From the NCBI GenBank assembly GCA_902802905.1, contig CADCNT010000001.1, positions 62,001 through 126,000 on the forward strand: a stretch of 64,000 nt of DNA. The letters run 5' to 3'. Position 1 is the stretch's first letter. Each line of letters starts with the position of its first letter. Below, piece after piece: positions 20,932-64,000 of the stretch. A program made the translations under genes and the position numbers. The notes under the pieces are model-generated. The model was not told where the DNA came from. It was given only the letters and a program-made list of their open reading frames with translations, and ran no database searches. The stretch is from an uncultured Erysipelotrichaceae bacterium (GTDB lineage Bacteria > Bacillota_I > Bacilli_A > RFN20 > CAG-826).

Positions 20932-21102
20932 AGTAAATCTCCTTTAACAAATATATTTTATAATATAAATTATCTTTTTCAATCAATATATCAGAGCGCA
21001 CTTATCAAATGTCGACTGAGCAGTTGATTTCAAATAGATAGATATTAACATTGTAAAAAGAATATTTCTTTTTTCTGCGATAATGTATTAATATTTTTAT
21101 TG

Positions 21103-23364
21103 ATGGTATCTATGGAAAAAGATAAACCTGTAGAAAACATTCATTCTAAAAAGAAGAAATTAACTAGAATTATCACCATTGCTTTAGTGATTCTTGTTAA
21201 CTTAGGCATTGTTGCTTTTATTGTGGTTAGAGAACTAACTAGCAACAAAGGTGGTACATCCAGATTAGATGTTACAAATCTTAATCTTTGGTTCCTCTTT
21301 TTTGGTATAGCTTTATTTGGAGTTGCTTTATTTGCTGAGTTTATGAAATACCGCAGAATGATTCTTTCTAGCTGTGGCAGATTAGATAAACGTGGTGCTT
21401 TCCAAGTTGCTGTATATGGTAAATATGCAGATAATATCACCCCTTTAGGCGCTGGTGGTCAGCCGTTCCAAATACATTTCCTACATAAAAGAGGATATCC
21501 AGGCGGAGCTTCAACTAGCGTTACTTTAAACGGATTTTTATCTCAACAAATCTCATTTATTATCATCTCTGTGGTGGTTTTAATTGTTGCTCCTTTTACC
21601 ACGACGATTCCTGAAGAAGTTTTAGCGCTTAAAATCATGGCCTATATCGGCTTAGCGTTTTACTCATTCTTCCCATTATTAATTATCTTTTTTGCTATAT
21701 TTCCAAAACCAGTTAACGCGATGCTTCTTGGCATATTAAAGCTTGGTTATAAGATGCACATAGTTAAAAACTATGAAGCCGCTCACGCTAGAGCAGTTAA
21801 TGGCATGAACGAATACGTGGTTTTAATTAAACAAGCAATTAAAAAGCCAACTTATATGATTCCGACCATGTTTTGGTCTTTTGTCTATCAATTCGCTATT
21901 TTAACTATTCCATATTTTGCCATTATGGCTTTTGGCGGATCTGTTGATTGGTGGACCACATTCGTTATTACTGTAAATATTTATCTAGCAATTACAATTA
22001 TTCCTACTCCTGGCAATGCTGGAGTAGCAGAAACATCCTTCTTCTTAGTTTTCTCTACTCTTCCTGCTGGTGCTTTATTCTGGGCCATGATTTATTGGCG
22101 CGCTCTTGTTTATTATTCATGGATAATTATTGGCTTAATCGTTGTGCTTAAAACCACAGTGAGAAATAGTTACATGCATAAAAAAGAAGTGCCTAATGAT
22201 AGACCTTTAAACATCTGTTTAGTGTGTGACACTTATTTCCCAATTATTGATGGAGTGGTACGCACTGTAGATCAATACGCTCGAGAAATGACAAAGTTGG
22301 GGCATAAAGTGGTTGTGGTGGTTCCTGATTTAGAAGGAAACGATGATTCTAAGCTTCCTTACGAAGTGTATCGTATGCCTCTATTGAAACTAAGAAGTAT
22401 TCCTTTTGATACAGTTAAGCCTTTTATGAATAGAAAAGCTGCAAAGTATTTTAAGGAATGTAAGTTTGATGTTATTCACTGTCATTCACCAATGTTTTTA
22501 GGAATGATGATGTCTAGATTTGGAAGAAAACATAAGATTCCAGTATTTACCACATTTCACTCCAAATATTATGATGACACGATTAATGTTACTCATAGCA
22601 AATTATTAGCTACTTTAATGGTGAAAATAATTCTTTATTTCTACCATCGTGTCGATAATGTATGGGCATGTAGTGCTTCTACCGGAGAAACGCTTAGGTC
22701 TTATGGTTATAACGGCCATATCGGTGTTATGGAAAATGGTGTGGAAGATCTACCAAAAGGTAACATTGAAGAATATAAAAAAGAAGCGGTTGAGCATTAT
22801 AATATTCCAACTGATAAACACTTGTTCTTGTTTGTTGGCCAACAAATATGGCATAAAAATCTAAAACTTGTTTTAGATACCACTAAAAAGATAAACGAAG
22901 AAGATGATAAATACCATGCAGTAATTGTTGGCACTGGTTATGATGAAGAGGCGATTAAAAAGTATGCTTCTGAAATAGGTATAAGCGACAAAGTGACATT
23001 TGTGGGCAAGATCAGAAGTCGTAAAACCTTATTTGGTTTATATAAAGCTTCAGACATTTTCTTCTTCCCATCTTTATATGATAACGCGCCACTTGTAGTT
23101 AGAGAGGCTGCATTAGCAGAATTACCTTCTTTATTAGTTAAAGGTAGCAACGCTGCTGAAATTGTTATCGACGGGGAAAACGGCTATTTAGCGGACAATG
23201 ATGTTGATTCAATGTGCGCCAGAATTAAAGCAGCCTATGAAGCCAAAAACATGAAAGAAGTGGGTAAAAAGGCTGCGGAGACCATCCCAATTCCTTGGAG
23301 TGTAATCGCTAAACAAGTCATAGAAAGATATGTTTTAGAAACAAAACATATTAAAAAAGTGTAA
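21103..23364 (+). CDS. Flippase-like membrane domain fused to a GT4 glycosyltransferase
   Basis: The N-terminal half (about 20-355) is an LPG_synthase_TM/UPF0104-type domain with about eight helices and the motif TPLGAGGQPFQIHFL. The C-terminal half (from about 370) is a GT-B family 4 transferase: NICLVCDTYFPIIDGVVRTV, HCHSPMFLG, HSKYYDDTI, ENGVED, VGQQIWHKN, then PSLYDNAPLVVREAALAE with the donor-binding Glu residues. It probably glycosylates a lipid on the inner leaflet and may help move it outward. No strong Shine-Dalgarno is visible; ATG 21103 and ATG 21112 are both possible. Only 22 bases separate it from the PPTase gene, so it may head the NRPS operon. Confidence 0.8.
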   Translation: MVSMEKDKPVENIHSKKKKLTRIITIALVILVNLGIVAFIVVRELTSNKGGTSRLDVTNLNLWFLFFGIALFGVALFAEFMKYRRMILSSCGRLDKRGAFQVAVYGKYADNITPLGAGGQPFQIHFLHKRGYPGGASTSVTLNGFLSQQISFIIISVVVLIVAPFTTTIPEEVLALKIMAYIGLAFYSFFPLLIIFFAIFPKPVNAMLLGILKLGYKMHIVKNYEAAHARAVNGMNEYVVLIKQAIKKPTYMIPTMFWSFVYQFAILTIPYFAIMAFGGSVDWWTTFVITVNIYLAITIIPTPGNAGVAETSFFLVFSTLPAGALFWAMIYWRALVYYSWIIIGLIVVLKTTVRNSYMHKKEVPNDRPLNICLVCDTYFPIIDGVVRTVDQYAREMTKLGHKVVVVVPDLEGNDDSKLPYEVYRMPLLKLRSIPFDTVKPFMNRKAAKYFKECKFDVIHCHSPMFLGMMMSRFGRKHKIPVFTTFHSKYYDDTINVTHSKLLATLMVKIILYFYHRVDNVWACSASTGETLRSYGYNGHIGVMENGVEDLPKGNIEEYKKEAVEHYNIPTDKHLFLFVGQQIWHKNLKLVLDTTKKINEEDDKYHAVIVGTGYDEEAIKKYASEIGISDKVTFVGKIRSRKTLFGLYKASDIFFFPSLYDNAPLVVREAALAELPSLLVKGSNAAEIVIDGENGYLADNDVDSMCARIKAAYEAKNMKEVGKKAAETIPIPWSVIAKQVIERYVLETKHIKKV

Positions 23365-23386: not shown

Positions 23387-23980
23387 ATGAAATCATTAGA
23401 AGTGATATTCTTCGACACTAATAAGATTGATTTAAATCATCTTTTAGGTTCGACATTTCTAAGTGATGCTAATTTAGAGGAATTATCTAGATTTAAAATG
23501 GACGAGACCAAAAAGGAAAAGGCCTGTTCATTTATTTTAAAGAATAAATATGTAAGAGATTATCACGTTAACAAGTTTGATAAACCTGTTAGTGATGTCT
23601 GCTATTTTAATGTCAGTCATTCAAAAGGCTTAGTGGTTTTTATTAAGGATGAAGTTCCTGTTGGAATTGATATTGAAAAAGTTAGACCAGTTAGTAATGA
23701 CTTAATTGACTATATCTCCTCTATAGAGGAAAATAAATATATTAAGAGCGAGTCGAACTTCTATGAAGTTTGGACCAATAAAGAATCTTTGAGTAAGTGC
23801 ATTGGAACAGGTATTAAAGACAAGATTAAAGAAATACCTGCTTTACCAATTAATGGAAAAAAAGAATATAAAAATAGAGTATTTTATTGTTTTACAATAA
23901 ATTATAGTGACGCAATTATATCTATCACAAGAGAAAGCGATGAACCATTTGTAGTAAAAATCGTGGAGGAAAAGTTATGA
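23387..23980 (+). CDS. Sfp-type 4'-phosphopantetheinyl transferase
   Basis: The 197-residue protein has the Sfp family motifs in order: CYFNVSHSKG, VGIDIEK (G93, D95, with E97 binding magnesium) and WTNKES (W129, K132, E133) followed by Lys. It transfers phosphopantetheine from CoA to carrier-protein serines. The stop overlaps the NRPS start (ATGA), so its role is activation of the two T domains of that synthetase. The arrangement recalls aureusimine-type loci, where a PPTase accompanies the dimodular NRPS. Confidence 0.9.
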   Translation: MKSLEVIFFDTNKIDLNHLLGSTFLSDANLEELSRFKMDETKKEKACSFILKNKYVRDYHVNKFDKPVSDVCYFNVSHSKGLVVFIKDEVPVGIDIEKVRPVSNDLIDYISSIEENKYIKSESNFYEVWTNKESLSKCIGTGIKDKIKEIPALPINGKKEYKNRVFYCFTINYSDAIISITRESDEPFVVKIVEEKL

Positions 23981-26900
23981 ACAAGTATTATCCATTATCT
24001 AGTAGTGAGCAAGGACTATACATCTCTTCTTTAAATTCTGGAGATGCCTATAATCTTGCTAACGTTGTTAATCTTGGTAAAGATGTAACTCTCGAGCAAG
24101 TTAATAAAGCACTTAATGCGATATTTGAAGCTCACCCATATCTTTTCACGGTCCTTTCTATTGATGAAGACGGCAATATCCTAAAGCACATTGAAAAAGA
24201 AGAATTCAAACTTAAACTCAAAGAAGTTAAAGAAGTTAAGATTGATTCTAAACCATATGAATTACTCAATAAGCATTTATATCGCTTTGAACTTTACAAA
24301 GTAAAAGATGAATATGTTTTCTATTTTGATTTCCATCACATCATTATGGATGGTAGCTCTATTGCTATCTTTATTAGTGATTTCTTCTTAGCGCTCGAAG
24401 GTAAAGAATTAACTAAAGAAGCTAGTGACGCTAACGAATTTTCTAATAAAGAAAAAGCAGATTTAAAATCGAAAAAATATCAAGAAGCAAAAGATTATTT
24501 TGAAAAATTAGTGGGAGGAGTGGAAACTGACTCTACCCCAGTAGAAGATAAAGCAGATCAAGACGTTAGTTATGGCAACATTCGTGTTCCATTAAAAGTC
24601 ACTAACGATGAAGTAAAGAAAATAACTAAGAGAGTTGGTGTTAAAACCTCTACCTTCTTCCTTAGTGCTTTCTCTTATTTATTAAGCAAAATTAACATGG
24701 AAAATGAATCTCTTTTCCTTACTGTGCATAACGGAAGAGATGAATCAGTTAAACATAGTTTTGGCTCTTATGTTAAAACTTATCCTATATATTTGAATTT
24801 TACAGACGAAGATAAAATTAGCGATTATTTGTTAAAAACAAATGAACAAGTGATCGAAAGTGTAAATCACGATATTTATCCTTTCTCAGACATGAATAAA
24901 GATTTAGGTACCAGCGCTGATGTCTTATTCGCTTATCAAGGTGACTATTTCTATTCTGGAACCTACAAAGGAAAATTTGTTGAAGTTACTCCTTTGCTTA
25001 GAAAAGACGGTAAAGAAAAGCTAAGTATCGAATTACATCGTATTCAAAACAATTTCATGATTTGGGTGGAGTATCGTAGTGATTTATATCTTGAATCCAC
25101 AATTAAGCATTTGATTAAAGAATATGATGTCATTCTTTCCGAATTCTTGAAGAAAGAAAAACTAATCGATATTGACTTACTCGATAAAGAAGAAACTAGA
25201 CTATTAGATTCATTTAATGAAACTAACTTCCCATATATTGAAGAAGGAAAGACTATTTTAGATGACTTCTTAGAAGTGGTAAAAAAGTATCCTGATGAAA
25301 TAGCGGTGGTCTATAAAGATAAAAAGTACACCTATAAACAAGTTGATGAGATAAGTACTAGAATCGCTAACGAACTTATTAAGCTAGGAGCAAAAAGAGA
25401 AAAGGTGGTTTCTGTTTTAGCTAAGAAATCTGAATATATTGTTTTAGCTAGTTTAGGTGTTATTAAATCTGGAGCAGCTTATCAACCATTAGATCCATCA
25501 TATCCAAAAGATAGATTGACCTTCATGGTAAAAGATTCCAGCGCCATCATCTTAATTAGAGACAAGGAATTAGATGATTTAGTGGATGATTTTAAAGGAC
25601 ATGTCTTATTTACCGAAGACTTGTTATCTTTAAAAGATAATAGTGAAATCAAAACCCGTCCAGAACCAAAAGATTTGTTTATCATGCTTTATACGTCTGG
25701 CTCAACCGGTGTTCCTAAAGGCGTCATGCTTGAACACGGTAACATCTTTGCCTTCTGTAGATACTATCGAGATAAATTCAAATTTGGTGCTGGTTGTAGA
25801 AATGCTGCCTATGCTTCATATGGCTTTGATGCAGATATGATGGATTTATATCCAACTCTCACTAGTGGAGCAACTGTATATATCATTCCTGATGAAATGA
25901 GACTCAATCTTGTTGAACTTGGTCAATACTATAACGACAATAAGATTACCCATGCATTTATGACTACCCAAGTTGGTCGTCAATTCGCCAGTGAAATTGA
26001 AGTAAAATCACTTAAATATTTTATGGTTGGTGGAGAAAAGCTTGTCCCTATGGATTCACCAAAAGGCTATGACTTCTATAATTTATACGGCCCTACCGAA
26101 GGTACAGTCTTCTGCACCGCCCAAATCGTTGATAAATATTATCACCGTATTCCAATTGGTAAGTGCTTATCAGACTATAAAGTCTATGTATTAGACAAAA
26201 ACAAAAAGAGACTTCCAACTCTTATGAGTGGAGAACTCTATATTTCTGGTCCACAAGTGGCAAGAGGTTACTTAAATAGAGAAAAAGAAAATAAAGAAGC
26301 CTTCCTTACCAACTGGTTTACAAAAGAAGAAAAATTTACAAGATTATATAAAACTGGTGACATTGTGCGTTTATTAGAAGATGGCACGATTGATTTTATT
26401 GGTAGAAAAGACGGACAAGTGAAGATCCGCGGCTTTAGAGTGGAACTTTCTGAAGTAGAAAAAGTGATTCGTGACTATCCAGGAATCAAAGACGCGACTG
26501 TTAAAGATTTCACTGACCCAAGCGGCGTGAAATATATTGTTGCTTATGTTGTTAGCGACTCTAAAGTCGATGTCGAAAAACTCAACGCTTTCATTTTAGA
26601 AAGAAAGCCACCATATATGGTTCCGGCTTACACCATGCAGATTGATAAGATTCCACTCAATCAAAATCAAAAGGTTAATAAAAGAGCGCTTCCTGTTCCA
26701 GAACTTAAAGTGGAAGAGAAGGTGGCTCCAAGAAATCAAGATGAGCAAGATATCTTCGATATCTTAAAAGGTATATTAGGGCACGACCAATTCGGTGTCA
26801 CTAATGACATGTTTGAGGTTGGTTTAACTTCTGTTTCTTCAATTAGATTTACTATTCTTTTGTCTAAAAAATACAATAAATCCGTTGATAATGGAGACTT

Positions 26901-29900
26901 AAAAGAACATCCAACCATCGCCTCTTTAGCAGATTTCCTTGCTTCTAAAGAAGAAGATAAGACTTATGAAGTGCTAGATGAATATCCATTAACCAAGACT
27001 CAAGAAGGCATCTTTGTTGAATGCGTATCTAAAGCTAATTCCACAAACTATAACATTCCATACTTATTCAAATTAGATAAGAAAATGGATTTAGAGAAGT
27101 TAAATAGTGCTGTAGTGAAGGCAATTGATAATCATCCATATCTCAAATCAATTTTACATATGAATGATGATGGCGATATTCTTGCTAGACGTAATAATGA
27201 GCCTGCTAAAGTGGAAATGATAGAAAAAGAAATCGATATCAAGTCTTTAGTAAGACCTTTTGCGATTTTAGATTCAACTCTTTATCGAGTAGAAATCTAT
27301 AAAGGCAAGGATAACTATCTCTTCTTGGATTTCCATCATATCCTTTGTGATGGCTCTTCTGAAGCGATTATCTTAAATGACATCAATAAAGCATACTTAG
27401 GAGAAGAATTAACTCCTGAAACTTATAGTGGCTACGAAGTAGCACTCAAAGAGAAAGATGATTTAGCAAGCGATAAACTAAGCAAAGCAAAAGAGTTCTA
27501 TCAAAACGTGCTTAAAGATGTAGATGGAGAATACACTTTAAAGAAAGATTTGAAAGTTAAAGACGAATCTAAACTTAAATCCATCGACTATGAATTGAAA
27601 TTAGATAATAAGTTAGTAAGTGATTATGTTTCAAATAATAAACTTACAAATAACGCTTTATTTAACTTTGCGTTTGCGTTTACTTTATCTAAGTTTATCT
27701 ACAAGAGTGATAGCCTTTATGAAACTATCTATAACGGCAGAAAATCATCCAAAGTGATGAACACTGTTTCAATGTTAGTAAAGACTTTACCAATCTATAT
27801 CAAATATGCAGAAGAAGATTTAGTTCTTAACAAAGTTAAAGAGATGCAAGAGTTGCTCTCTAGCTCTGAAGAATATGACTTGTATTCTTTCGGAGACATC
27901 GCTAACGACTATAACTTAAAAGCCAATATCATCTTTGCTTATCAAGGTGACAACTTTAACTTTGATGAGATTGGTGGATATCCTGTCACTCCGATCCTTA
28001 TGGAAAGTGAGACTCCTAAGAGTGATTTTGGTTTAGATATCTTCTTAGAAAACGGTGTCTATAGAGCCCATTATGAATGGGATGAAGCTATTTATAATGA
28101 TGAGACAATCGCTTCATTCAATCGTTTGTTTGAACTTGTCTTAAATGAACTTTTAAGCAAACAAAATATCAAAGATATTAATTGCTTGCCAAGGACTGAT
28201 GAAGATTTATATGTGAAATTTAACAACACTAAAGTTGAAATTCCAAACGTTACAGTTAATCAACTTTTAGAAGCTCATGCAGAGTCTAAAGCAAATAAAG
28301 TAGCGGTCATCGCTAAAAACGGCAAACTTACTTATAAAGAGTTAAATGAATCCGCAAACAAGGTGGCTCATAAACTCCTTGATAGTGGAGTAAAACTCGC
28401 TGAATGTGTGGTCATGCTTATGCCTAGAATAAAAGAAGCATATGTAGTTAGACAAGGTATTGTAAAATCTGGAGCAGCTTTTGTTCCTGTTGATCCTAAA
28501 TATCCTGATGACCGTGTGAGCTATATTATCACTGATTCTGGCAGCAAATATTTGATTTCCACTAAAGAAATCATTGCTCAAAAAGCGGATTTGATTAAAT
28601 CAACTAAAGTTAAAGCATTTGCGATTGAAGATATTTTAGAATCTAACAAAGTGAATAATCCTAATGTGAAGATTCCTCAATCATCCATGGCCTATGTGAT
28701 TTATACTTCTGGCTCTACCGGAAGACCAAAAGGCGTGATGATTGCCCATAGAAACTTACTTAACTATGTGGTTGATGACACTAATTTAGCGACCTCAGCT
28801 TATCGTGATATTGGAGTTGATTGCGTTAGCTGTTCATTTGCGTCATTATCATTTGATGCTTCTTTACAAGAAGAGTTTGTTCCTTTAACACATGGTTACA
28901 CCGCAGTGATTGCTAGCGAAGAAGAGATTGAAAATCCATTACTTCTAGCTAAGACCTTAAAAGAAAACAATGTTAAATACATGTTCATGACTCCATCATT
29001 TGTATCTAACTTGTTAGATATTGATGTCTTCGTGGACGCTCTTAAGGGATTTAAATATTTAGACATGGGTGCTGAAGCAGTACCAATGGAACTTTGTAAT
29101 CGCTTAAGAAGTTTAGGCGTAAACGCTAATATCTTAAATGGCTATGGTCCAACTGAAACAACAATTACTGCTACCTATTGTTTAGTAAAAGATAAATACA
29201 TGACTATCGGTACTCCAGTAGCAAACACCAAAGCATACATCCTCGATAAAGCAGGACACATCTTACCAATTAATACGATTGGTGATTTAACTCTTGCTGG
29301 TGAATCCGTTGGTTTAGGCTATCTTGGTATGCCAGATAAAACTAAAGAAGCCTTTATTGAAGTAAAAGGTGAAAAAGCATATCGCAGTGGTGATATGGCA
29401 AGAATTAACTCTGAAGGCAAGATTGAATTCTTTGGTCGACTTGATAACCAAGTAAAACTTAGAGGTTTAAGAGTTGAACTCGATGAAATTGAAAGAGTCT
29501 TAAATTCTTATCCAAGTGTCACAAGAAGTATTATCTTAGTGAAGACAAACGCGACGGAGGGCGACTATTTAGCTGCTTACTTTACCGCTAGCACTAATGT
29601 TGACAAGGATGATTTATTAGCACATATGGCAAAATATCTCACCCCATACATGGTGCCAAAAGTGGTGATGCAATTAGATAAGTTCCCACTTACACCAAAC
29701 GGTAAGATTGATAAAAAATCACTTCCTGAAATCGAAGTGAAAGTGGAACAAAAAGAAATCAAAGCCGCTTCTAACGAACTAGAAGAAAAACTCCTTGGCT
29801 TATTTAAGAAAGCTCTTGGAAAAGAAAACGTCGGAGTGGATGACGACTTCTTTGAATTAGGCGGAACATCCTTAAGTGTTTCTAAAGTGGCAATGTTAGC

Positions 29901-31200
29901 ACTTAACATGGGCTTACCTATCGCTTATGGCGATGTCTTTGAATATTCCACTGTTTTAGAATTAGAAGCTCATATTAATTCATTGAATAAAGATAATTCA
30001 CCGGTTGTTGAAGAAAAGAAACAACAAGCAGAAATTACTAGCCTTGCTCATAACGTAGTGGAAGAAGTTAATGATGTAAAAATTGACTTTGAAACTAAGA
30101 GAGTGCTTTTAACTGGTTCTACTGGATTCTTAGGAATTCACATTCTTAAAGAATTATTAGACCAAAAAGTTGAAGTGATTGCTCTTATTAGAGGTGGCAA
30201 ACTTGATCCAAAACAAAGATTATTAGGCTTATTAACTTATTACTTTGATTCACCTCTTATCGATGAAGTGGATAAATATGTCACCATCGTGGACGGTGAT
30301 GTCACTGATGAGACACTATATGACAAGTTAAAAGATCATGATTTCAATTTAATCATTAACTCGGCAGCGATTGTTAAGCATTTCGCTAACGACGACATTA
30401 TTGAAACAGTTAATGTTGGTGGCTTGAAGAATTTAATTGAAATCGCCAAGAAGAAATCGTCTCGATTAATTCAAATCTCGACCCTGTCTGTTGCTGGAGA
30501 AAACATTGATAATAGGTTCCCTGCATCCTTTAGGATGAAAGAAGATATGTTAGACTTTGGTCAAGATGTATCTAATAAGTATGTCCATTCTAAATTTGAT
30601 GCTGAAAAAGCATTATTAGAAGCGGTAAAGAATGATGGATTGGACGGCAAAGTCATCCGTGTTGGCAACTTGATGAGTAGACAAAGCGATGGAGAATTCC
30701 AAGCCAACTCCATCACCAATGGCTTTATGCGTGACTTAAAAGGCTATGTTACTTTACATAAATTCCCAGTGAATTCAATGGATGTGGAGGTTGATTTCTC
30801 ACCAATCGATGAAGTTGCAAAAACCATACTTTTACTTGCAAAAACTCCACGCAAGTTCACTGTTTTCCATTCTGCTAACTCTCACATGGTGCAGATGGGA
30901 GATATCGTTTATGTGTTAAATGAACTCGGATTTGATATTGAAGTAGTAAGCGATGACGACTTCCTTAAATCAATGAAAGAAATGATGATGGATGACTCTA
31001 AGAGCATGCTTGTATCTTCACTTATTTCTTATTCATCTAGTGATATGCATACTCACTCATTTATTCTTTCTGATAATGAGTTCTCTAATAAGAGTCTGTA
31101 TCATTTAGGATACAAATGGCCAATTACTGACTATAATTATCTAAAGAACGCAATTGATTCCCTTGCAACACTCGACTTCTTTAACAGGACTGATGTATGA
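23977..31200 (+). CDS. Dimodular NRPS with terminal reductase (C-A-T-C-A-T-R)
   Basis: 2407 residues. C1 (1-425) has HHIIMDG with H120, H121 and D125. A1 (430-905) has TSGSTG at 573-578 and A10 Lys899. T1 carries Ser952 in GLTSV. C2 (985-1420) has HHILCDG with H1120, H1121 and D1125. A2 (1427-1915) has TSGSTG at 1577-1582 and Lys1910. T2 has GGTSL with Ser1965. The reductase (2040-2407) has TGSTGFLG at 2046-2053 and catalytic Y2202/K2206. All catalytic motifs look intact. The product should be a dipeptide released by NAD(P)H as aldehyde or alcohol. The leading C domain, unlike A-first aureusimine synthetases, suggests N-acylation as in the gut dipeptide-aldehyde protease inhibitors. My by-eye specificity residues (A1 about DAMFMGLVFK, A2 about DAQFLMGITK) are tentative; A1 looks hydrophobic. 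Confidence 0.95.
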   Translation: MNKYYPLSSSEQGLYISSLNSGDAYNLANVVNLGKDVTLEQVNKALNAIFEAHPYLFTVLSIDEDGNILKHIEKEEFKLKLKEVKEVKIDSKPYELLNKHLYRFELYKVKDEYVFYFDFHHIIMDGSSIAIFISDFFLALEGKELTKEASDANEFSNKEKADLKSKKYQEAKDYFEKLVGGVETDSTPVEDKADQDVSYGNIRVPLKVTNDEVKKITKRVGVKTSTFFLSAFSYLLSKINMENESLFLTVHNGRDESVKHSFGSYVKTYPIYLNFTDEDKISDYLLKTNEQVIESVNHDIYPFSDMNKDLGTSADVLFAYQGDYFYSGTYKGKFVEVTPLLRKDGKEKLSIELHRIQNNFMIWVEYRSDLYLESTIKHLIKEYDVILSEFLKKEKLIDIDLLDKEETRLLDSFNETNFPYIEEGKTILDDFLEVVKKYPDEIAVVYKDKKYTYKQVDEISTRIANELIKLGAKREKVVSVLAKKSEYIVLASLGVIKSGAAYQPLDPSYPKDRLTFMVKDSSAIILIRDKELDDLVDDFKGHVLFTEDLLSLKDNSEIKTRPEPKDLFIMLYTSGSTGVPKGVMLEHGNIFAFCRYYRDKFKFGAGCRNAAYASYGFDADMMDLYPTLTSGATVYIIPDEMRLNLVELGQYYNDNKITHAFMTTQVGRQFASEIEVKSLKYFMVGGEKLVPMDSPKGYDFYNLYGPTEGTVFCTAQIVDKYYHRIPIGKCLSDYKVYVLDKNKKRLPTLMSGELYISGPQVARGYLNREKENKEAFLTNWFTKEEKFTRLYKTGDIVRLLEDGTIDFIGRKDGQVKIRGFRVELSEVEKVIRDYPGIKDATVKDFTDPSGVKYIVAYVVSDSKVDVEKLNAFILERKPPYMVPAYTMQIDKIPLNQNQKVNKRALPVPELKVEEKVAPRNQDEQDIFDILKGILGHDQFGVTNDMFEVGLTSVSSIRFTILLSKKYNKSVDNGDLKEHPTIASLADFLASKEEDKTYEVLDEYPLTKTQEGIFVECVSKANSTNYNIPYLFKLDKKMDLEKLNSAVVKAIDNHPYLKSILHMNDDGDILARRNNEPAKVEMIEKEIDIKSLVRPFAILDSTLYRVEIYKGKDNYLFLDFHHILCDGSSEAIILNDINKAYLGEELTPETYSGYEVALKEKDDLASDKLSKAKEFYQNVLKDVDGEYTLKKDLKVKDESKLKSIDYELKLDNKLVSDYVSNNKLTNNALFNFAFAFTLSKFIYKSDSLYETIYNGRKSSKVMNTVSMLVKTLPIYIKYAEEDLVLNKVKEMQELLSSSEEYDLYSFGDIANDYNLKANIIFAYQGDNFNFDEIGGYPVTPILMESETPKSDFGLDIFLENGVYRAHYEWDEAIYNDETIASFNRLFELVLNELLSKQNIKDINCLPRTDEDLYVKFNNTKVEIPNVTVNQLLEAHAESKANKVAVIAKNGKLTYKELNESANKVAHKLLDSGVKLAECVVMLMPRIKEAYVVRQGIVKSGAAFVPVDPKYPDDRVSYIITDSGSKYLISTKEIIAQKADLIKSTKVKAFAIEDILESNKVNNPNVKIPQSSMAYVIYTSGSTGRPKGVMIAHRNLLNYVVDDTNLATSAYRDIGVDCVSCSFASLSFDASLQEEFVPLTHGYTAVIASEEEIENPLLLAKTLKENNVKYMFMTPSFVSNLLDIDVFVDALKGFKYLDMGAEAVPMELCNRLRSLGVNANILNGYGPTETTITATYCLVKDKYMTIGTPVANTKAYILDKAGHILPINTIGDLTLAGESVGLGYLGMPDKTKEAFIEVKGEKAYRSGDMARINSEGKIEFFGRLDNQVKLRGLRVELDEIERVLNSYPSVTRSIILVKTNATEGDYLAAYFTASTNVDKDDLLAHMAKYLTPYMVPKVVMQLDKFPLTPNGKIDKKSLPEIEVKVEQKEIKAASNELEEKLLGLFKKALGKENVGVDDDFFELGGTSLSVSKVAMLALNMGLPIAYGDVFEYSTVLELEAHINSLNKDNSPVVEEKKQQAEITSLAHNVVEEVNDVKIDFETKRVLLTGSTGFLGIHILKELLDQKVEVIALIRGGKLDPKQRLLGLLTYYFDSPLIDEVDKYVTIVDGDVTDETLYDKLKDHDFNLIINSAAIVKHFANDDIIETVNVGGLKNLIEIAKKKSSRLIQISTLSVAGENIDNRFPASFRMKEDMLDFGQDVSNKYVHSKFDAEKALLEAVKNDGLDGKVIRVGNLMSRQSDGEFQANSITNGFMRDLKGYVTLHKFPVNSMDVEVDFSPIDEVAKTILLLAKTPRKFTVFHSANSHMVQMGDIVYVLNELGFDIEVVSDDDFLKSMKEMMMDDSKSMLVSSLISYSSSDMHTHSFILSDNEFSNKSLYHLGYKWPITDYNYLKNAIDSLATLDFFNRTDV

Positions 31201-32957
31201 CATTAGAGAGAAATTCTAAGTTGATTAATAAAAAGTTCATTCAATATTTGATTCCTTCAATTTTGATGATTTTTGCTATGCAATTTGGTTCTCTTATTGA
31301 TGGTATTTTAGTTGGAAACATGATTGGTAATGACGCTCTTAGTGCGACAGCCTTGGTTGTGCCAATACTCTATGTTATTCAATTACCAGGATTTGCTTTA
31401 GGCATTGGTGGATCAATTGTGATAGCTAATTTTCTAGGAAAAAGAGATTTAGTAAGCGCTAAAAAAGCATTTTCTATTTCTTTAATTATCGGAACAGGCA
31501 TCTCACTATTATTTACAATAATCGCTTTTCCAGTATCAAAACCTTTAGCAAGCTTATTCTCAATTGATTTGCTTGATTATTCGTATCAATACATTCTTGG
31601 CTATTTATTGACCGATCCATTTATTGCTTTAGCATTAATGCTTGGTTCATTTATGGCTGTCGATAATAATCCTAGATTATCTTCAGCGCTATTTATAGTT
31701 TCTAATATCGCAAAAGTCGGGCTAGAAGTATTATTCATTTACACCTTTAAATCTTGGGCAACTTTTGGTGCTGCTATTAGTACTGGGGTTGGTTATTTAG
31801 TTGGCTTATTAACTGTCATTCTTTATGTTAGAAGTAGTAAACGAAATTTAACCTTTTCATTTAATATAAAAGGTAGTGGTTTTAAAGGGATCGTTAGATC
31901 TAGCAGCACAACAGCATTAAACATGGCGCTTACCGCTATTCAAAGCATTATCGTTAATATTTTTATTGGTCGATTAATTACCGAACCTATAGAGTTAATT
32001 ACCTTTGGTCTTGTTGCCAATATGGTGTTCCTATTTGATTTAGCGTGTGGAGGAATTATAAATATTATTCCAACGATTTGCGGTATATTTTACGGCGAAA
32101 AAGACTTTTATTCTTTAAAAAAGCTTACAAGAAAAATCTTCTTTATTAATGTTGGAGTAACCGCAGTTTTGACTGCTATTATTGCTGTATTCCCAAATTT
32201 CTACTCTTTGATTTTTGGCTATCCAAATCCAACTAATCCAGATTATACTTTTAGAATTCTTAGACTATATTTGATTTCGTTTATTCCTTATGAAATAAGC
32301 AAATTCTCCATGGAATATTATCCTTCAATCGAAAAGAATTTGCCTTCTTTGGTCACTGTGTTATTACGTGAGTTAATTATTGTTTTACCTGTGACATTAG
32401 GATTATTATTCACTATGGGACTTGAAGGATATGTATTAGCCTGTGCTATTACAGAAATTACCACAGTCATTATTACTTATGCGTTTATTTTGATTTATGA
32501 AAAGGTGAAGAAAAAGAATTGTCATGGCATTTTCATGTTTGAAAAAGAAGACTATAAAACTTTTGATGTTTCTATAACTAATGAATTAGATAATGCTTCA
32601 ATCATTTCAGAACAATTATCAAAGTTTGCTTTAGAAAATGGTGTTCCTAACCGTGAAAGTCAGATTGTGGGTCTTGCTTGTGAAGAGATGGTGGACAACA
32701 TTGTCGAATTTGGTTATAAGAAAGAAAAACGTAATTATATCGATGTTTCTCTTAAAATCAATAATGATTTGTTATTATTAAGGGTAAGAGATGACGGAGT
32801 GCCTTTTGATCCTACTAAATCTCAAAAGGAAGAAAATGAAGAATACTCAACTAACGGCATTGAGTTAATTAGTAAAATGGTTACTAAGATGTCATATATG
32901 CGTGTTTTGAGTTTAAATAATACAGTTTTTGAAATCAGTTTAGGAGGAAATAATTGA
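31197..32957 (+). CDS. MATE-family exporter fused to an RsbW/SpoIIAB-like HATPase domain
   Basis: Residues 1-440 form a twelve-helix MATE/MOP transporter (KFIQYLIPSILMIFAMQFGSL, IDGILVGNMIGNDALSA, GSIVIANFLGKRD). Residues about 455-586 are a GHKL ATPase domain of the anti-sigma kinase type: N-box EEMVDN with E497 and N501, G1 RDDGVPF with D532 and G534, and G2 NGIELI. The start overlaps the NRPS stop (ATGA), so it is the likely exporter of the peptide. The kinase-like domain should bind ATP and a STAS partner, and the next gene encodes one. Regulation of transport by partner switching is inference from this architecture. Confidence 0.9.
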   Translation: MTLERNSKLINKKFIQYLIPSILMIFAMQFGSLIDGILVGNMIGNDALSATALVVPILYVIQLPGFALGIGGSIVIANFLGKRDLVSAKKAFSISLIIGTGISLLFTIIAFPVSKPLASLFSIDLLDYSYQYILGYLLTDPFIALALMLGSFMAVDNNPRLSSALFIVSNIAKVGLEVLFIYTFKSWATFGAAISTGVGYLVGLLTVILYVRSSKRNLTFSFNIKGSGFKGIVRSSSTTALNMALTAIQSIIVNIFIGRLITEPIELITFGLVANMVFLFDLACGGIINIIPTICGIFYGEKDFYSLKKLTRKIFFINVGVTAVLTAIIAVFPNFYSLIFGYPNPTNPDYTFRILRLYLISFIPYEISKFSMEYYPSIEKNLPSLVTVLLRELIIVLPVTLGLLFTMGLEGYVLACAITEITTVIITYAFILIYEKVKKKNCHGIFMFEKEDYKTFDVSITNELDNASIISEQLSKFALENGVPNRESQIVGLACEEMVDNIVEFGYKKEKRNYIDVSLKINNDLLLLRVRDDGVPFDPTKSQKEENEEYSTNGIELISKMVTKMSYMRVLSLNNTVFEISLGGNN

Positions 32958-33253
32958 TGGAAATTAGTATTAAACATGATGGAGCGTTAATTTTTGCGCT
33001 CAGCGGAAGATTAGACACAATTACTTCTCAACAACTTCTTCAAGCATTTGCTAAAGAAAAAGTGGAAGAAGAACTTTTAATTGTCGACATGAAAGATCTT
33101 GAATACATCTCTTCTGCCGGCTTAAGAGCTCTTTTAGCAATGAAAAAAGAGTTAGCGAGCAAAAACAAAGAACTCGAAGTTCATAATTTGAACGATATTT
33201 GTAAAGAAGTATTTAGAGTGACAGGAATGGGGAACATTCTTACTGTCAAATAA
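32957..33253 (+). CDS. STAS-domain anti-anti-sigma factor-like protein
   Basis: 98 residues forming a single STAS domain (ALIFALSGRLD, LIVDMKDLEYISSAGLRALL). The phosphorylatable serine is in ISSAGLR (S52/S53), as in SpoIIAA and RsbV. The ATG at 32957 overlaps the stop of the MATE-HATPase gene by one base and has AGGAGG upstream; a TTG three bases earlier is not needed. By family knowledge the protein would be phosphorylated by an RsbW-like domain and dephosphorylated by a PP2C. The two neighbours supply exactly these, one of them fused to a transporter. Confidence 0.9.
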   Translation: MEISIKHDGALIFALSGRLDTITSQQLLQAFAKEKVEEELLIVDMKDLEYISSAGLRALLAMKKELASKNKELEVHNLNDICKEVFRVTGMGNILTVK

Positions 33254-33261
33254 TTAAATTT

Positions 33262-35427
33262 ATGAAACGTCGTTTCCCAATTTTATTAAAGGTAATTCTG
33301 TTAGGCATCGGTGTGTCTATTTTAACTTCGGGCACCGCTGTCACAGTTTCGTATTTCAACCAAGTAAATAGAGGGGAACAAAATTTAATTGATTCTATTG
33401 ATAATACTTTGGAAGCTGCCAATGATGTATTTTCGGACTTGGATGGACAAAATACATTGCTTTATGTCGAATATTTAAACGACATTAGAAATTATGTTCA
33501 AAACATTTTTATTAATGATACTGATAAAAAGACAATTGATGATTTTAATACATTTGATGAATTTGCCGCCTATTACCAAACAAAATATCGTTGGATATAT
33601 CCTCACGATCCAAGATTTGGATTATTAGAACCTGGTGAAGCTGAATTCAAATTAGCGTATTATACAATTCTTAATTTATTAGATAATTTCCAAATTTCAT
33701 CTGGTTCTGTATCTGCGTTTTTATCTTATGAGGACGTAGATAAAACCTTAGTCTTTTTAGCAGATTCCCGCATGGATAATAGCGATCGAAAAGCAAATGA
33801 TTATTTCCATGTTCCTGGATATTATTACCATATAAAGAGTTCGGATTATTTTGTGGATTCATCTCATAATAAGCATATGGGCTGCAGGCTAGATGGATAT
33901 TTAACTAGATTCATTGAAATTCGTGAACCAGCATCCACTCCTGATGAACCACAAAGATTGATCGCTAATTTATACATTCAATACGATTTATCAAAAGTTC
34001 ATAAACAGTCACTTGATGTTCTTTATAAAGAGTTATTGATTATCGGTTTATCGGCATTGGCCCTTATTGCTATTTATACCGCGTTTTCATATTTGCTATT
34101 TGTGAAAAATATTAATAAGCTTTCAAAATCATCTAGTGAAATTAGACAAAGATTAGTTGATAAAAACATGAATGAAATCGTGGATATCCCTATTAAATCT
34201 AACGATGAGATGAGTGTATTAAAAGATTCATTGATTGAGATGGAAAAAGCAATTATCAACTATGTTGATATTATTCATAAAGAAGCCCAAGAAAAAGAAA
34301 GAAATAATGCTGAACTTATGGTGGCAAGTAAGATTCAGTTAGATTCTCTACCTCCAGAGAAACTAGAAGATAAAAACGCCTCCTTAAGAGCGTTTATTAA
34401 AACCGCTAAAGAAGTGGGTGGCGATTTCTATGATTACTTCTATCTTGATGACCACCGTTTAGCTGTGCTCATTTCTGATGTTTCCGGTAAAGGCATTCCT
34501 GCCTCATTATTCATGATGAAAGGCAAGGAACTTATTAAATCCGCAGTGCAATCATATAAGTCGCTAGTGGAAGCCGTTAACGGAGTCAATAATATGCTTG
34601 TTAAGAATAATGAAGAATTATTATTCATTACCTCCTTTGTTGCAATTATTGACTTTGAAAAAGGTGAAATTAAATATGTTAATGCTGGACATGAAAAACC
34701 TTATATTGTCTCTAAAGACAAGGTGATAAAATTGGATGGCGAATCTAACATAATGTTAGGAGTTGAAGCCAACTATCAATTCAAACAAGAGTCACATAAA
34801 TTTAATGAAGGTGATTATCTCTTCTTATTTACGGACGGCTTAAATGAATCCATTAATGATAGTGAAGAAGAATTTGGCTATCAAAGAATTGAAGAATCAC
34901 TAAAAGACACTGGTGATAGCCATTTAGATGATGTGATTAATAAATTAATCAATAATCTTGATTCATTTACTGGTTGTAGAGAACAGTTCGATGATATTAC
35001 TATGCTTGCAGTCAAATGCAAAAAGAACGAATTGCATTTACGCTATGAGCAAAAAGATTACTCTATCATTAGTGATGCAACCGATAAGTTTAATGAATAC
35101 TTCTCCTTTATTGCCGACGATAAAAAAGCCTCTATCGGCATTATTATCGATGAAATAGTTAATAACTATGTATCTTATGAAGAAAGAGAAGATTTGGTTA
35201 TTGAAGTCAACTTTAAACTTGTTGATAACGATTTAGAAATTGTCTTTTCCTGTAACGGCAATGATTACGATCCTTTTAAAAACCATAAAGAAAAATTCCT
35301 TGAGACATTCCATTCGGAAATCGAACTTGGTGGTTTTGGCTTATCAATTGTTAAAGATTTATCTAAATCACATAAATATCACTATAAAGACGGACATTCA
35401 TATATTGAAATTGTTGTTGCTTTATAA
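33262..35427 (+). CDS. Membrane sensor PP2C phosphatase (SpoIIE/RsbU type) with C-terminal HATPase domain
   Basis: 721 residues. TM1 (about 8-28) and TM2 (about 255-275) enclose an extracytoplasmic sensor of about 225 residues. A HAMP-like linker follows, then a SpoIIE-type PP2C (about 340-595) with metal aspartates D388 (VGGDFY), D406 (ISDVSGKG), D525 (FTDGLNE) and D577/D578 (QFDDIT). A second GHKL domain (about 600-721) has an E631-xxx-N635 N-box and GGFGLSIV. It should dephosphorylate the STAS protein in response to an outside signal, perhaps the peptide itself, and may also bind or phosphorylate it through its HATPase. No clear Shine-Dalgarno is seen. It ends the six-gene run; no strong terminator follows. 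Confidence 0.9.
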   Translation: MKRRFPILLKVILLGIGVSILTSGTAVTVSYFNQVNRGEQNLIDSIDNTLEAANDVFSDLDGQNTLLYVEYLNDIRNYVQNIFINDTDKKTIDDFNTFDEFAAYYQTKYRWIYPHDPRFGLLEPGEAEFKLAYYTILNLLDNFQISSGSVSAFLSYEDVDKTLVFLADSRMDNSDRKANDYFHVPGYYYHIKSSDYFVDSSHNKHMGCRLDGYLTRFIEIREPASTPDEPQRLIANLYIQYDLSKVHKQSLDVLYKELLIIGLSALALIAIYTAFSYLLFVKNINKLSKSSSEIRQRLVDKNMNEIVDIPIKSNDEMSVLKDSLIEMEKAIINYVDIIHKEAQEKERNNAELMVASKIQLDSLPPEKLEDKNASLRAFIKTAKEVGGDFYDYFYLDDHRLAVLISDVSGKGIPASLFMMKGKELIKSAVQSYKSLVEAVNGVNNMLVKNNEELLFITSFVAIIDFEKGEIKYVNAGHEKPYIVSKDKVIKLDGESNIMLGVEANYQFKQESHKFNEGDYLFLFTDGLNESINDSEEEFGYQRIEESLKDTGDSHLDDVINKLINNLDSFTGCREQFDDITMLAVKCKKNELHLRYEQKDYSIISDATDKFNEYFSFIADDKKASIGIIIDEIVNNYVSYEEREDLVIEVNFKLVDNDLEIVFSCNGNDYDPFKNHKEKFLETFHSEIELGGFGLSIVKDLSKSHKYHYKDGHSYIEIVVAL

Positions 35428-61083: not shown

Positions 61084-62358
61084 TTAAATCTGATCGAGTT
61101 CTTCTTTGATTTTTTCTTTCTTCAAGTTTTGACCAATGAAGACTAATTTGATTAATTTGTCGCCATATGTTTCGTCCCAGTCATGAGCGAAGTTTTTATC
61201 ATTTTTAACCAACATTTGAAGTTGTTGTTTTGATAAGGTGACGCTATACCACTTGCCGGATTGATTAAGTGATTGTTGTCTTCCGGCTTGTTCATAAACA
61301 TAAGCGAATTTTGGTTCTTCTTCAAAGTATAGGATACCTTTTGATCTAATGAGATGATGTTTGTTTTCATTTGCCCATTTGATGAACAATTCTTTTTTAA
61401 ATGGTCTTCTACGGAAATAGACAAATGTATTTACATCATATTCATCAGCGGTACCCTCATCATCGTTTTCATCCATGCCATGTTCGTGGTGGTGATGGTG
61501 ATGATGGTGGTGCTCATGTTCTTCATGTTCATGATGATGTTCATGTTCATCTTCGTCGTCATCATCATCGTCATCATCATCGTGATGGTGATGATGATCC
61601 TCATCTGCGTCAACTTCGTTGTCCCAGTCTTCAAATTCTCTAATCCACGCAGCGGAAGTGGAAGCTTCTTCAAATTTGAATAATTTTGTGTCCACCAATT
61701 CGTCGATATCAACATCACAGAAATCAGTTCTAATGATTTTTGCTTTTGGCTGAATGGCTCTAATGGTCTTTTCAACTCTTTCTAGTTCTGATTTAGAGAT
61801 TTCACTTACTTTATTCAAAAGAATAATGTCACAGAATTCGATTTGTTGAATCACAAGATTCTCTAAATCTTCTTCTCCTCTTTCTGCACTTTCAAGAGCT
61901 TCTCCACAACCGAATTCATCTCTTAATCTAAAAGCGTCAGTAACAGAGATAATTGCGTCAAGCGTATAGAACTTTGGTAATTTCTTTTTATTGAATTCCT
62001 CTTCCATAAAGGAGATGGTTTGGGCAATTGGCACTGGTTCACAAATACCACTGGCTTCAATTAAGATATGGTCGAATTTTTGTGACTGCACTAAATCCGC
62101 TAATTGTTCAATTAAATCTTTCTTTAATGTACAGCAGATACATCCATTTTGAAGAGAGACTAGGTTATCTCCTTTAGAAGAAACAACCCCACCCTTTTCA
62201 ATGAGCTCGGCGTCGATATTAACTTCGCCTAAGTCATTAACAATAACTGCCATCTTATGGCTTTTCGCATTTTTTAAAATGTGGTTGATTAAAGTGGTTT
62301 TACCACTCCCTAAATATCCTGTAATCAAGGTAATAGGTACTGTTTTAAATTCTGACAT
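61084..62358 (-). CDS. COG0523 G3E GTPase / metallochaperone with His/Asp-rich loop
   Basis: 424 residues from ATG 62358, which has GGAGG at 62365-62369; the ATG at 62379 encodes that ribosome site and is rejected. Walker A is GYLGSGKT (14-21), the metal motif is CICC (C73, C75, C76), and LLNKVSE gives the guanine-specificity region. A stretch of about 45 residues (about 249-293) is almost only His, Asp and Glu, and a CobW C-terminal domain follows. Such proteins deliver zinc or another metal under scarcity. The promoter carries a FUR-like dyad, which supports zinc control. The acidic/His loop should buffer divalent metal. Confidence 0.9.
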   Translation of the reverse strand: MSEFKTVPITLITGYLGSGKTTLINHILKNAKSHKMAVIVNDLGEVNIDAELIEKGGVVSSKGDNLVSLQNGCICCTLKKDLIEQLADLVQSQKFDHILIEASGICEPVPIAQTISFMEEEFNKKKLPKFYTLDAIISVTDAFRLRDEFGCGEALESAERGEEDLENLVIQQIEFCDIILLNKVSEISKSELERVEKTIRAIQPKAKIIRTDFCDVDIDELVDTKLFKFEEASTSAAWIREFEDWDNEVDADEDHHHHHDDDDDDDDDEDEHEHHHEHEEHEHHHHHHHHHEHGMDENDDEGTADEYDVNTFVYFRRRPFKKELFIKWANENKHHLIRSKGILYFEEEPKFAYVYEQAGRQQSLNQSGKWYSVTLSKQQLQMLVKNDKNFAHDWDETYGDKLIKLVFIGQNLKKEKIKEELDQI

Positions 62359-63904: not shown

Positions 63905-64000
63905 ATGAGATCGACATTAGAAAAAGGCGTATTAACAATTTACTTAGAAGGTGAACTTAATTCCTATAGTGCTGAACCTATGGGGAAAGAAATCGACCAA
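63905..64000 (+). CDS. STAS-domain protein, N-terminal part
   Basis: The first 32 codons of a gene cut by the window end. GVLTIYLEGELNSYSAEPMG has the strand-loop-helix start of a SpoIIAA/RsbV STAS domain (compare ALIFALSGRLDTITSQ in the NRPS-operon protein). GAGG lies upstream. A second partner-switching system may begin here. Confidence 0.65.
   Translation, partial: MRSTLEKGVLTIYLEGELNSYSAEPMGKEIDQ

Follow-up and report, generated by a model that had tools for sequence, protein, structure and literature searches.

Why should genes for a STAS protein, an RsbW-like kinase and a serine phosphatase lie directly beside those of a peptide synthetase, and on what would such a circuit act? This question is raised by a locus in an uncultured Erysipelotrichaceae bacterium (GTDB lineage Bacteria; Bacillota_I; Bacilli_A; RFN20; CAG-826), contained in a stretch of 64,000 nucleotides (hereafter the window) that spans positions 62,001 to 126,000 of the forward strand of contig CADCNT010000001.1 (assembly GCA_902802905.1). 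Here a reductase-terminated dimodular nonribosomal peptide synthetase (NRPS), its 4'-phosphopantetheinyl transferase (PPTase), a MATE exporter that ends in an RsbW-like kinase domain, a STAS protein and a PP2C-type phosphatase of the membrane form a conserved unit of five genes at 23387-35427 of the window (Table 1). The gene content, motif integrity and linkage of this unit are established. That it also works as a whole, producing an acyl-capped aldehyde and releasing it through an exporter gated by the switch, is a reading for and against which we see equal weight.

An earlier note on this DNA, made from the letters alone, had described positions 23387-31200 as a complete C-A-T-C-A-T-R synthetase (C, condensation; A, adenylation; T, thiolation; R, reductase) with intact motifs and its own Sfp-type PPTase, in a small-genome-like Bacilli lineage. 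Pfam searches, hidden Markov models (HMMs) built in this analysis and direct motif reading bear out this description, and the source genome is small (1.54 Mb in 25 contigs, completeness 95.6%). The interval contains both genes but ends too early, as the exporter, STAS and phosphatase genes, which carry the unit on to 35427, had been overlooked. Successive genes overlap from the PPTase to the STAS gene: the PPTase 3' end shares four bases with the NRPS start, the MATE-kinase start overlaps the NRPS stop (ATGA), and the STAS gene overlaps the MATE-kinase stop by 1 base.

The three genes that follow the NRPS are predicted, from their sequences, to be parts of a partner-switching circuit. They encode a STAS protein with the conserved Ser, an RsbW-like kinase domain with both an N-box (EEMVDN) and a G1 box (RDDG), and a PP2C phosphatase with its metal-binding Asp residues. 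Among relatives, the G1 Asp of the kinase is kept in 38/38 fusions and the N-box Asn in 36/38, the STAS Ser in 32/32 STAS open reading frames, and the PP2C Asp residues in all 27 phosphatases. The trio thus resembles SpoIIAA/SpoIIAB/SpoIIE and RsbV/RsbW/RsbU in combining a STAS protein that has a phosphorylatable Ser with an RsbW-like kinase and a PP2C phosphatase. It differs from them in that the kinase is fused to a MATE exporter and that no second Sigma70_r3 protein is found in the genome.

Table 1. Features of the five-gene unit, in window coordinates
Feature	Coordinates	Strand	Length	Evidence
Sfp-type 4'-phosphopantetheinyl transferase	23387..23980	+	197 aa	Pfam ACPS 39.4 bits (gathering 25); best NCBIfam model AusB PPTase, 70.1 bits, below cut-off 225
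Dimodular NRPS, C-A-T-C-A-T-R, 0 internal stops	23977..31200	+	2407 aa	Pfam, own HMMs
C1 domain with intact HHIIMDGSS, most similar to elongation-type domains	23983..25236	+		HMM, motif, profile, fold
A1 domain	25294..26721	+		HMM
T1 domain, VGLTSVSS	26740..26952	+		HMM, motif
C2 domain, HHILCDGSS	26983..28191	+		HMM, motif
A2 domain	28234..29721	+		HMM
T2 domain, LGGTSLS	29740..29946	+		HMM, motif
Terminal thioester reductase R (NAD_binding_4), TGSTGFLG and YVHSK	30064..31176	+		Pfam, HMM, motif
MATE exporter (about aa 1-445) with fused kinase domain of the RsbW-like kind (HATPase_c_2, aa 461-569)	31197..32957	+	586 aa	Pfam MatE 91.2 bits, HATPase_c_2 46.6 bits
STAS protein, YISSAGLR	32957..33253	+	98 aa	Pfam STAS 55.0 bits; found by STAS search of the source genome
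Membrane PP2C (SpoIIE-type) phosphatase with putative extracellular sensor (Cache-like) and a degenerate HATPase at its C terminus	33262..35427	+	721 aa	Pfam SpoIIE 145.9 bits

The linkage of these genes was followed across relatives. A scan of public genomes with the synthetase gave 57 loci (L003-L059; L001-L002 were left out as pieces of the source genome), of which L059, a weak match, was excluded from the tallies; neither locus nor genome counts are independent, many of the metagenome-assembled genomes (MAGs) being close kin. Considering that long orthologs with 58-86% identity occur in many rumen Bacilli MAGs, the NRPS locus does not owe its presence to chance, and the close loci are mostly from rumen or ruminant MAGs, going by database descriptions. 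Among close loci (at least 57% identity, n=33), a MATE-kinase gene lies within 3 kb in 24 of the 25 that have at least 2 kb of downstream sequence, and the corresponding figure for distant loci (n=23) is 11 of 17. Where at least 4.5 kb is available downstream, STAS genes were found within 6 kb in 17/20 close and 5/13 distant loci, and PP2C genes in 15/20 and 4/13, respectively. In some Clostridia the STAS and MATE-kinase genes stand upstream of the NRPS and the PP2C gene downstream, so the set stays together through rearrangement.

Within the family the association is stricter. When 146 family genomes were scanned (NRPS E <= 1e-50, MATE-kinase E 1e-30), 29 gave NRPS matches, comprising 19 long orthologs (at least 46% identity) and others that were partial or distant. 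The MATE-kinase fusion was detected in 18 of the 146, in every case directly beside the NRPS ortholog, and in none of the 127 family genomes that have no NRPS ortholog. One of the 18 (G128) has a split NRPS, with the two pieces of its MATE-kinase on the same contig as the NRPS C-terminal part; the 19th ortholog genome (G067) gave no fusion match, and its contig ends inside the NRPS. A scan of 392 genomes of the phylum gave five MATE-kinase matches, namely three fusions in NRPS genomes and two MATE proteins with no kinase part.

Several observations weigh against an obligatory coupling of synthetase, exporter and switch. The fusion is missing beside the NRPS at one close locus (L007) and six distant ones (L019, L036, L037, L045, L053, L054), STAS and PP2C are both missing at L014 and L016, and PP2C is missing at L009 and L028. 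Furthermore, of 17 genomes reached through the Clostridia-type loci and L007, 15 match the MATE-kinase at 29 places, many of them distant from an NRPS. All 16 further MATE-kinase stretches taken from these 17 genomes carry both domains, yet STAS or PP2C accompanies only five of them and an R-containing NRPS one more, with none of these partners in the other 10. Their neighbors are mixed: an A-T-C NRPS, STAS, PP2C and a carboxylesterase (L086), a GH3 enzyme and PP2C (L092), or an acyl carrier protein (ACP) and an AMP ligase (L079). From these scattered places and mixed neighbors it follows that the MATE-kinase fusion is a wider architecture of Clostridia, often, though not always, near small-molecule synthesis.

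Some of the exceptional loci have features of their own. The synthetase of L007 (L007:732-7958) is 70% identical to that of the window, and neither PPTase, MATE-kinase, STAS nor PP2C was found within the DNA examined there. At L019, L036 and L054 a 324-aa transporter is encoded directly upstream of the NRPS, the one at L036 being a Mem_trans (AEC-type) protein, and L019 retains STAS and PP2C downstream of the NRPS despite the missing MATE-kinase.

On what, then, would the switch act? In the mechanism that we propose, the MATE protein would export the NRPS product, which is likely its cargo. The fused RsbW-like kinase would phosphorylate the STAS protein, the membrane phosphatase would dephosphorylate it upon sensing an extracellular small molecule, and unphosphorylated STAS would bind the kinase domain and thereby change the activity of the exporter. 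That STAS acts on the exporter is held tentatively, at slightly less than an even chance, and it follows from a plain reading of the fusion: since the kinase is joined to a membrane exporter, STAS binding would alter that exporter. The textbook nature of the kinase-STAS-phosphatase trio would also suit transcriptional control of the cluster, with the kinase domain acting against a sigma factor, as with SigB/SigF and as suggested for an NRPS of the methanogen Methanobrevibacter ruminantium. SigB/SigF-type targets possess sigma region 3. The source genome contains one Sigma70_r3 protein, of 434 aa and thus of housekeeping-sigma size, and no second one that could serve as an alternative sigma factor of this type, a count that rests on region 3 in a 95.6% complete genome, sigma factors devoid of this region not having been searched, which tempers its weight in favor of the exporter. 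Because of this single protein the transcriptional reading was lowered, and the switch would more plausibly act on the exporter than on a sigma factor. The membrane tethering of the kinase argues in the same direction. So does the occurrence of a similar set, going by its published description, in an archaeon, as we know of no bacterial sigma factors in archaea. Control through a sigma factor is therefore considered unlikely.

The fusion itself fits either direction of signaling, and the MATE domain could instead be the sensor, its transport state setting the kinase while phospho-STAS acts elsewhere, for example on another kinase-like domain or an enzyme. The degenerate HATPase of the phosphatase could bind STAS in such a scheme; its G1 Asp is lacking in 17/19 Bacilli-type rows, so this domain may be inactive. 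The phosphatase, however, already has an extracellular Cache-like domain, and no separate output gene was seen conserved with the set, other neighbors not having been searched systematically. Sensing by the exporter is thus as doubtful as the sigma-factor route. If, as preferred here, the exporter is the target, there may exist a class of metabolite MATE exporters that are gated by STAS on a fused kinase, a sensing PP2C being in control and no sigma factor involved. Such a class would occur in rumen Bacilli and Clostridia, possibly also in methanogens, and the pathways that depend on it would be of the NRPS, GH3 and ligase-ACP kinds; this generalization is possible, though we regard it as more doubtful than it is probable.

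The sensor is the fastest-evolving part of the unit: median identity to the window over 16 loci is 35% for the N-terminal region of the phosphatase, compared with 58% for its PP2C domain and 76-81% for A1, A2 and R. In a structural model of this region (predicted local distance difference test score, pLDDT, 83.9), a domain of helices and five to six strands is flanked by two long helices whose ends span the membrane. Foldseek ranked the periplasmic domain of RsbU from Chlamydia trachomatis first (E 9.4e-3), and comparison by VIA gave Z 8.7-9.0 with DctB and 7.9 with WalK. The Cache-like assignment is based on these VIA scores near 8-9 and on topology, and is counterbalanced by Foldseek, where 0 of 413 matches had E < 0.001; on this model, the sensor may be called Cache-like, though not firmly.

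The synthetase is intact throughout. Pfam finds two Condensation, two AMP-binding, two AMP-binding_C, two PP-binding and one NAD_binding_4 domain, and the HMMs place them in the order C1-A1-T1-C2-A2-T2-R. Both carrier motifs are intact (MFEVGLTSVSSIR in T1 and FFELGGTSLSVSK in T2), and the PPTase, in which the motifs GIDIE and WTNKESLSK were read directly, would prime both T domains. Two amino acids would then be coupled. The A1 specificity code, which we take to be DAMFFVLVFK, is more variable among relatives than the A2 code, presumably DAQFLMGITK, which is identical in 27/28 close rows including the window, so that the A2 pocket appears near-invariant across the clade; neither code yields a confident amino-acid assignment.

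For release, the terminal domain (NAD_binding_4, 110 bits) keeps both the nucleotide-binding TGSTGFLG and the Tyr-Lys YVHSK motif, as expected of a working reductase; an inactive one would have spoken against the aldehyde proposed in the earlier note. The R domain would use NAD(P)H to release the chain reductively. Motifs by themselves, as we understand it, cannot separate two-electron from four-electron R domains, and the reduction could continue to a peptide alcohol. The nearest named model nevertheless points the other way, for a review describes the release of AusA as a two-electron reduction to the aldehyde (PMC8210680), which makes an alcohol improbable. With the R domain intact, and by analogy with AusA (PMC8210680) and with gut dipeptide aldehydes (PMC12327764), the product probably ends in an aldehyde, and this proposal of the earlier note was a fair one.

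Whether the product also carries an acyl cap is less clear. The earlier note had concluded this from the intact HHxxxDG motif of the leading C domain, an argument that lacks support as it was put; C1 is closer to elongation-type than to starter domains. A profile of 25 family C1 domains scored BacC (163.8 bits), LgrA (160) and TycC (148.8) against 43.6 for the RzmA starter and 33 for the CDA starter, these references being taken without regard to LCL or DCL subtype. Fold comparison ranked LgrA (Z 42) before RzmA-Cs (37.9) and CDA-C1 (36.8), all of them high values. In a tree rooted at its midpoint, with no outside reference, the window C1 joined the C2 domains at 98/98, apart from the C1 domains that stand behind acyl-type ligase domains. 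On a limited set of reference C domains, profile and fold thus lean away from the starter-type placement that the note had in mind, and neither tree, profile scores nor fold ranking lent support to a plain starter domain. It had been expected that the window C1 would be sister to those C domains of Clostridia relatives that come after an additional ligase-like domain at the N terminus, but this was contradicted by the tree. All this weighs against a cap. In favor of one, those ligase-like domains carry Val or Ile in place of the amino-acid Asp in 11/11 cases, some of which are near copies.

Its elongation-type similarity would allow C1 to take over an aminoacyl or peptidyl chain loaded on some partner carrier protein, leading to a longer peptide. 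An upstream NRPS partner, which the earlier note had named as a point that would speak against its proposal, was not found, the only two Condensation matches in the 95.6% complete genome being those of this gene. Moreover, only two further AMP-binding proteins are present, with acyl-CoA ligases as their best NCBIfam models, all below cut-off, so that a longer peptide is very improbable. C1 may also be idle or accept no acyl group, in which case a free-amine dipeptide aldehyde would cyclize to a dihydropyrazinone or pyrazinone, as with AusA. This would agree with C1 being the least conserved large domain of the NRPS (median 63% compared with 73-81% for A1, C2, A2 and R) and not starter-like, and with AusA being the best NCBIfam model (NF047350, 1086.8 bits). 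On the other hand, 25/25 aligned C1 domains share the second His, the Asp and the Gly of their motif (the first His differs in 6/25), and AusA lacks a leading C domain, its order being A-T-C-A-T-R. We therefore regard an idle C1 as rather unlikely, and an N-acyl cap, which C1 would most likely attach to the N terminus using a carboxylic acid supplied in trans on a carrier protein, as slightly favored.

A candidate acyl donor is encoded elsewhere in the genome, as a stand-alone 667-aa protein that joins an AMP-ligase with a PP-binding domain (ligase-ACP; L071:1396-3399, G000:C3), besides which there is a second ligase of the long-chain type. The ligase-ACP occurs in 91/146 family genomes, mostly ones devoid of the NRPS, and every one of the 19 NRPS genomes has it (G093 only as a copy with 30% identity). 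It was hence rejected as an NRPS-specific donor; being so common, it need not serve the NRPS at all, and the product could be without an acyl cap, a further point against capping. Acyl delivery by a carrier protein does have a precedent, in that a gut system is described in which a stand-alone ligase, an ACP and a C domain produce fatty acid amides (PMC13142362). Two negative results in the source genome also count in favor of a cap, as neither a Ketoacyl-synt_C match nor a Condensation domain outside this NRPS was found there. The ligase-ACP possibly takes part in fatty-acid uptake.

Among known systems, AusA/AusB is similar in being dimodular, R-terminated and coupled to a PPTase, and provides the best NCBIfam models for both proteins (NF047350, 1086.8 bits; NF047349, 70.1 bits). 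It differs in domain order, and neither score reaches the curated cut-off (2500 and 225, respectively). The gut dipeptide aldehydes and ruminopeptin (Guo 2017; Schneider) are likened by description rather than by sequence: NRPSs of gut Firmicutes yield dipeptide aldehydes, and an N-acyl tail is said to have a stabilizing effect (PMC12327764, PMC8210680). The host here differs, being a rumen Bacilli lineage.

The closest parallel in gene content is mru_0068 of M. ruminantium M1, described in 2010. According to that description (PMC2812497), this rumen organism has a dimodular C-A-T-C-A-T synthetase with a terminal thioester reductase (so named in the legend of Fig. S8, and as a thioesterase in the main text), adjoined by a MatE efflux protein, an anti-sigma factor antagonist and serine phosphatases. 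The same combination of a C-A-T-C-A-T-R NRPS with MatE, STAS and serine phosphatase is found in the window, the comparison being one of published description rather than sequence. The differences are that the host is an archaeon and that its PPTase is encoded elsewhere in the genome (PMC2812497). Its authors proposed that the set serves in sensing and export and regulates expression of the NRPS (PMC2812497), and a protein of M. millerae SM9 is given as 81% identical to mru_0068 (PMC4987999).

The surroundings of the unit and further STAS genes were also recorded. Upstream, a gene whose product combines an LPG_synthase_TM domain with a GT4 glycosyltransferase (window 21100-23364) ends 22 bases before the PPTase; it was rejected as a member of the unit, as it was found at none of the loci L003-L059. 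Outside the window, a second pair of STAS and PP2C-HATPase genes (L073:6985-9343; G000:C1:22984-25342) precedes a 63-aa peptide that matches the Nif11 leader model weakly (Pfam 23.7 bits, cut-off 23.8). STAS also accompanies exporters at a further locus, likewise outside the window (L076:1-5552; G000:C10), which comprises the end of a SPASM-domain gene, two NHLM-type ABC exporters slightly under their NCBIfam cut-offs (840.2 of 853.3 and 653.7 of 709.4) and the STAS gene. A fourth STAS match lies in a 398-aa open frame at about 63923-64000 that runs past the window end.

Taken by itself, the synthetase is ordinary, adding one more member to an established type. What may be new is the MATE-kinase fusion as the putative target of a sigma-free partner switch, for which no paper was found in the Creative Commons-licensed PMC literature, a body of work that mostly excludes subscription journals; the pump-and-switch layout has been less studied than the synthetase. 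If this reading is true, a circuit best known from transcription would directly control the gating of a natural-product pump, in hosts that have hardly any alternative sigma factors, and the presence of STAS, kinase and phosphatase genes beside NRPS genes, that of the methanogen included, would be explained. The product, likely a protease inhibitor made by many Bacilli of the ruminant gut, could in turn bear on protein breakdown and on relations among microbes in the rumen.

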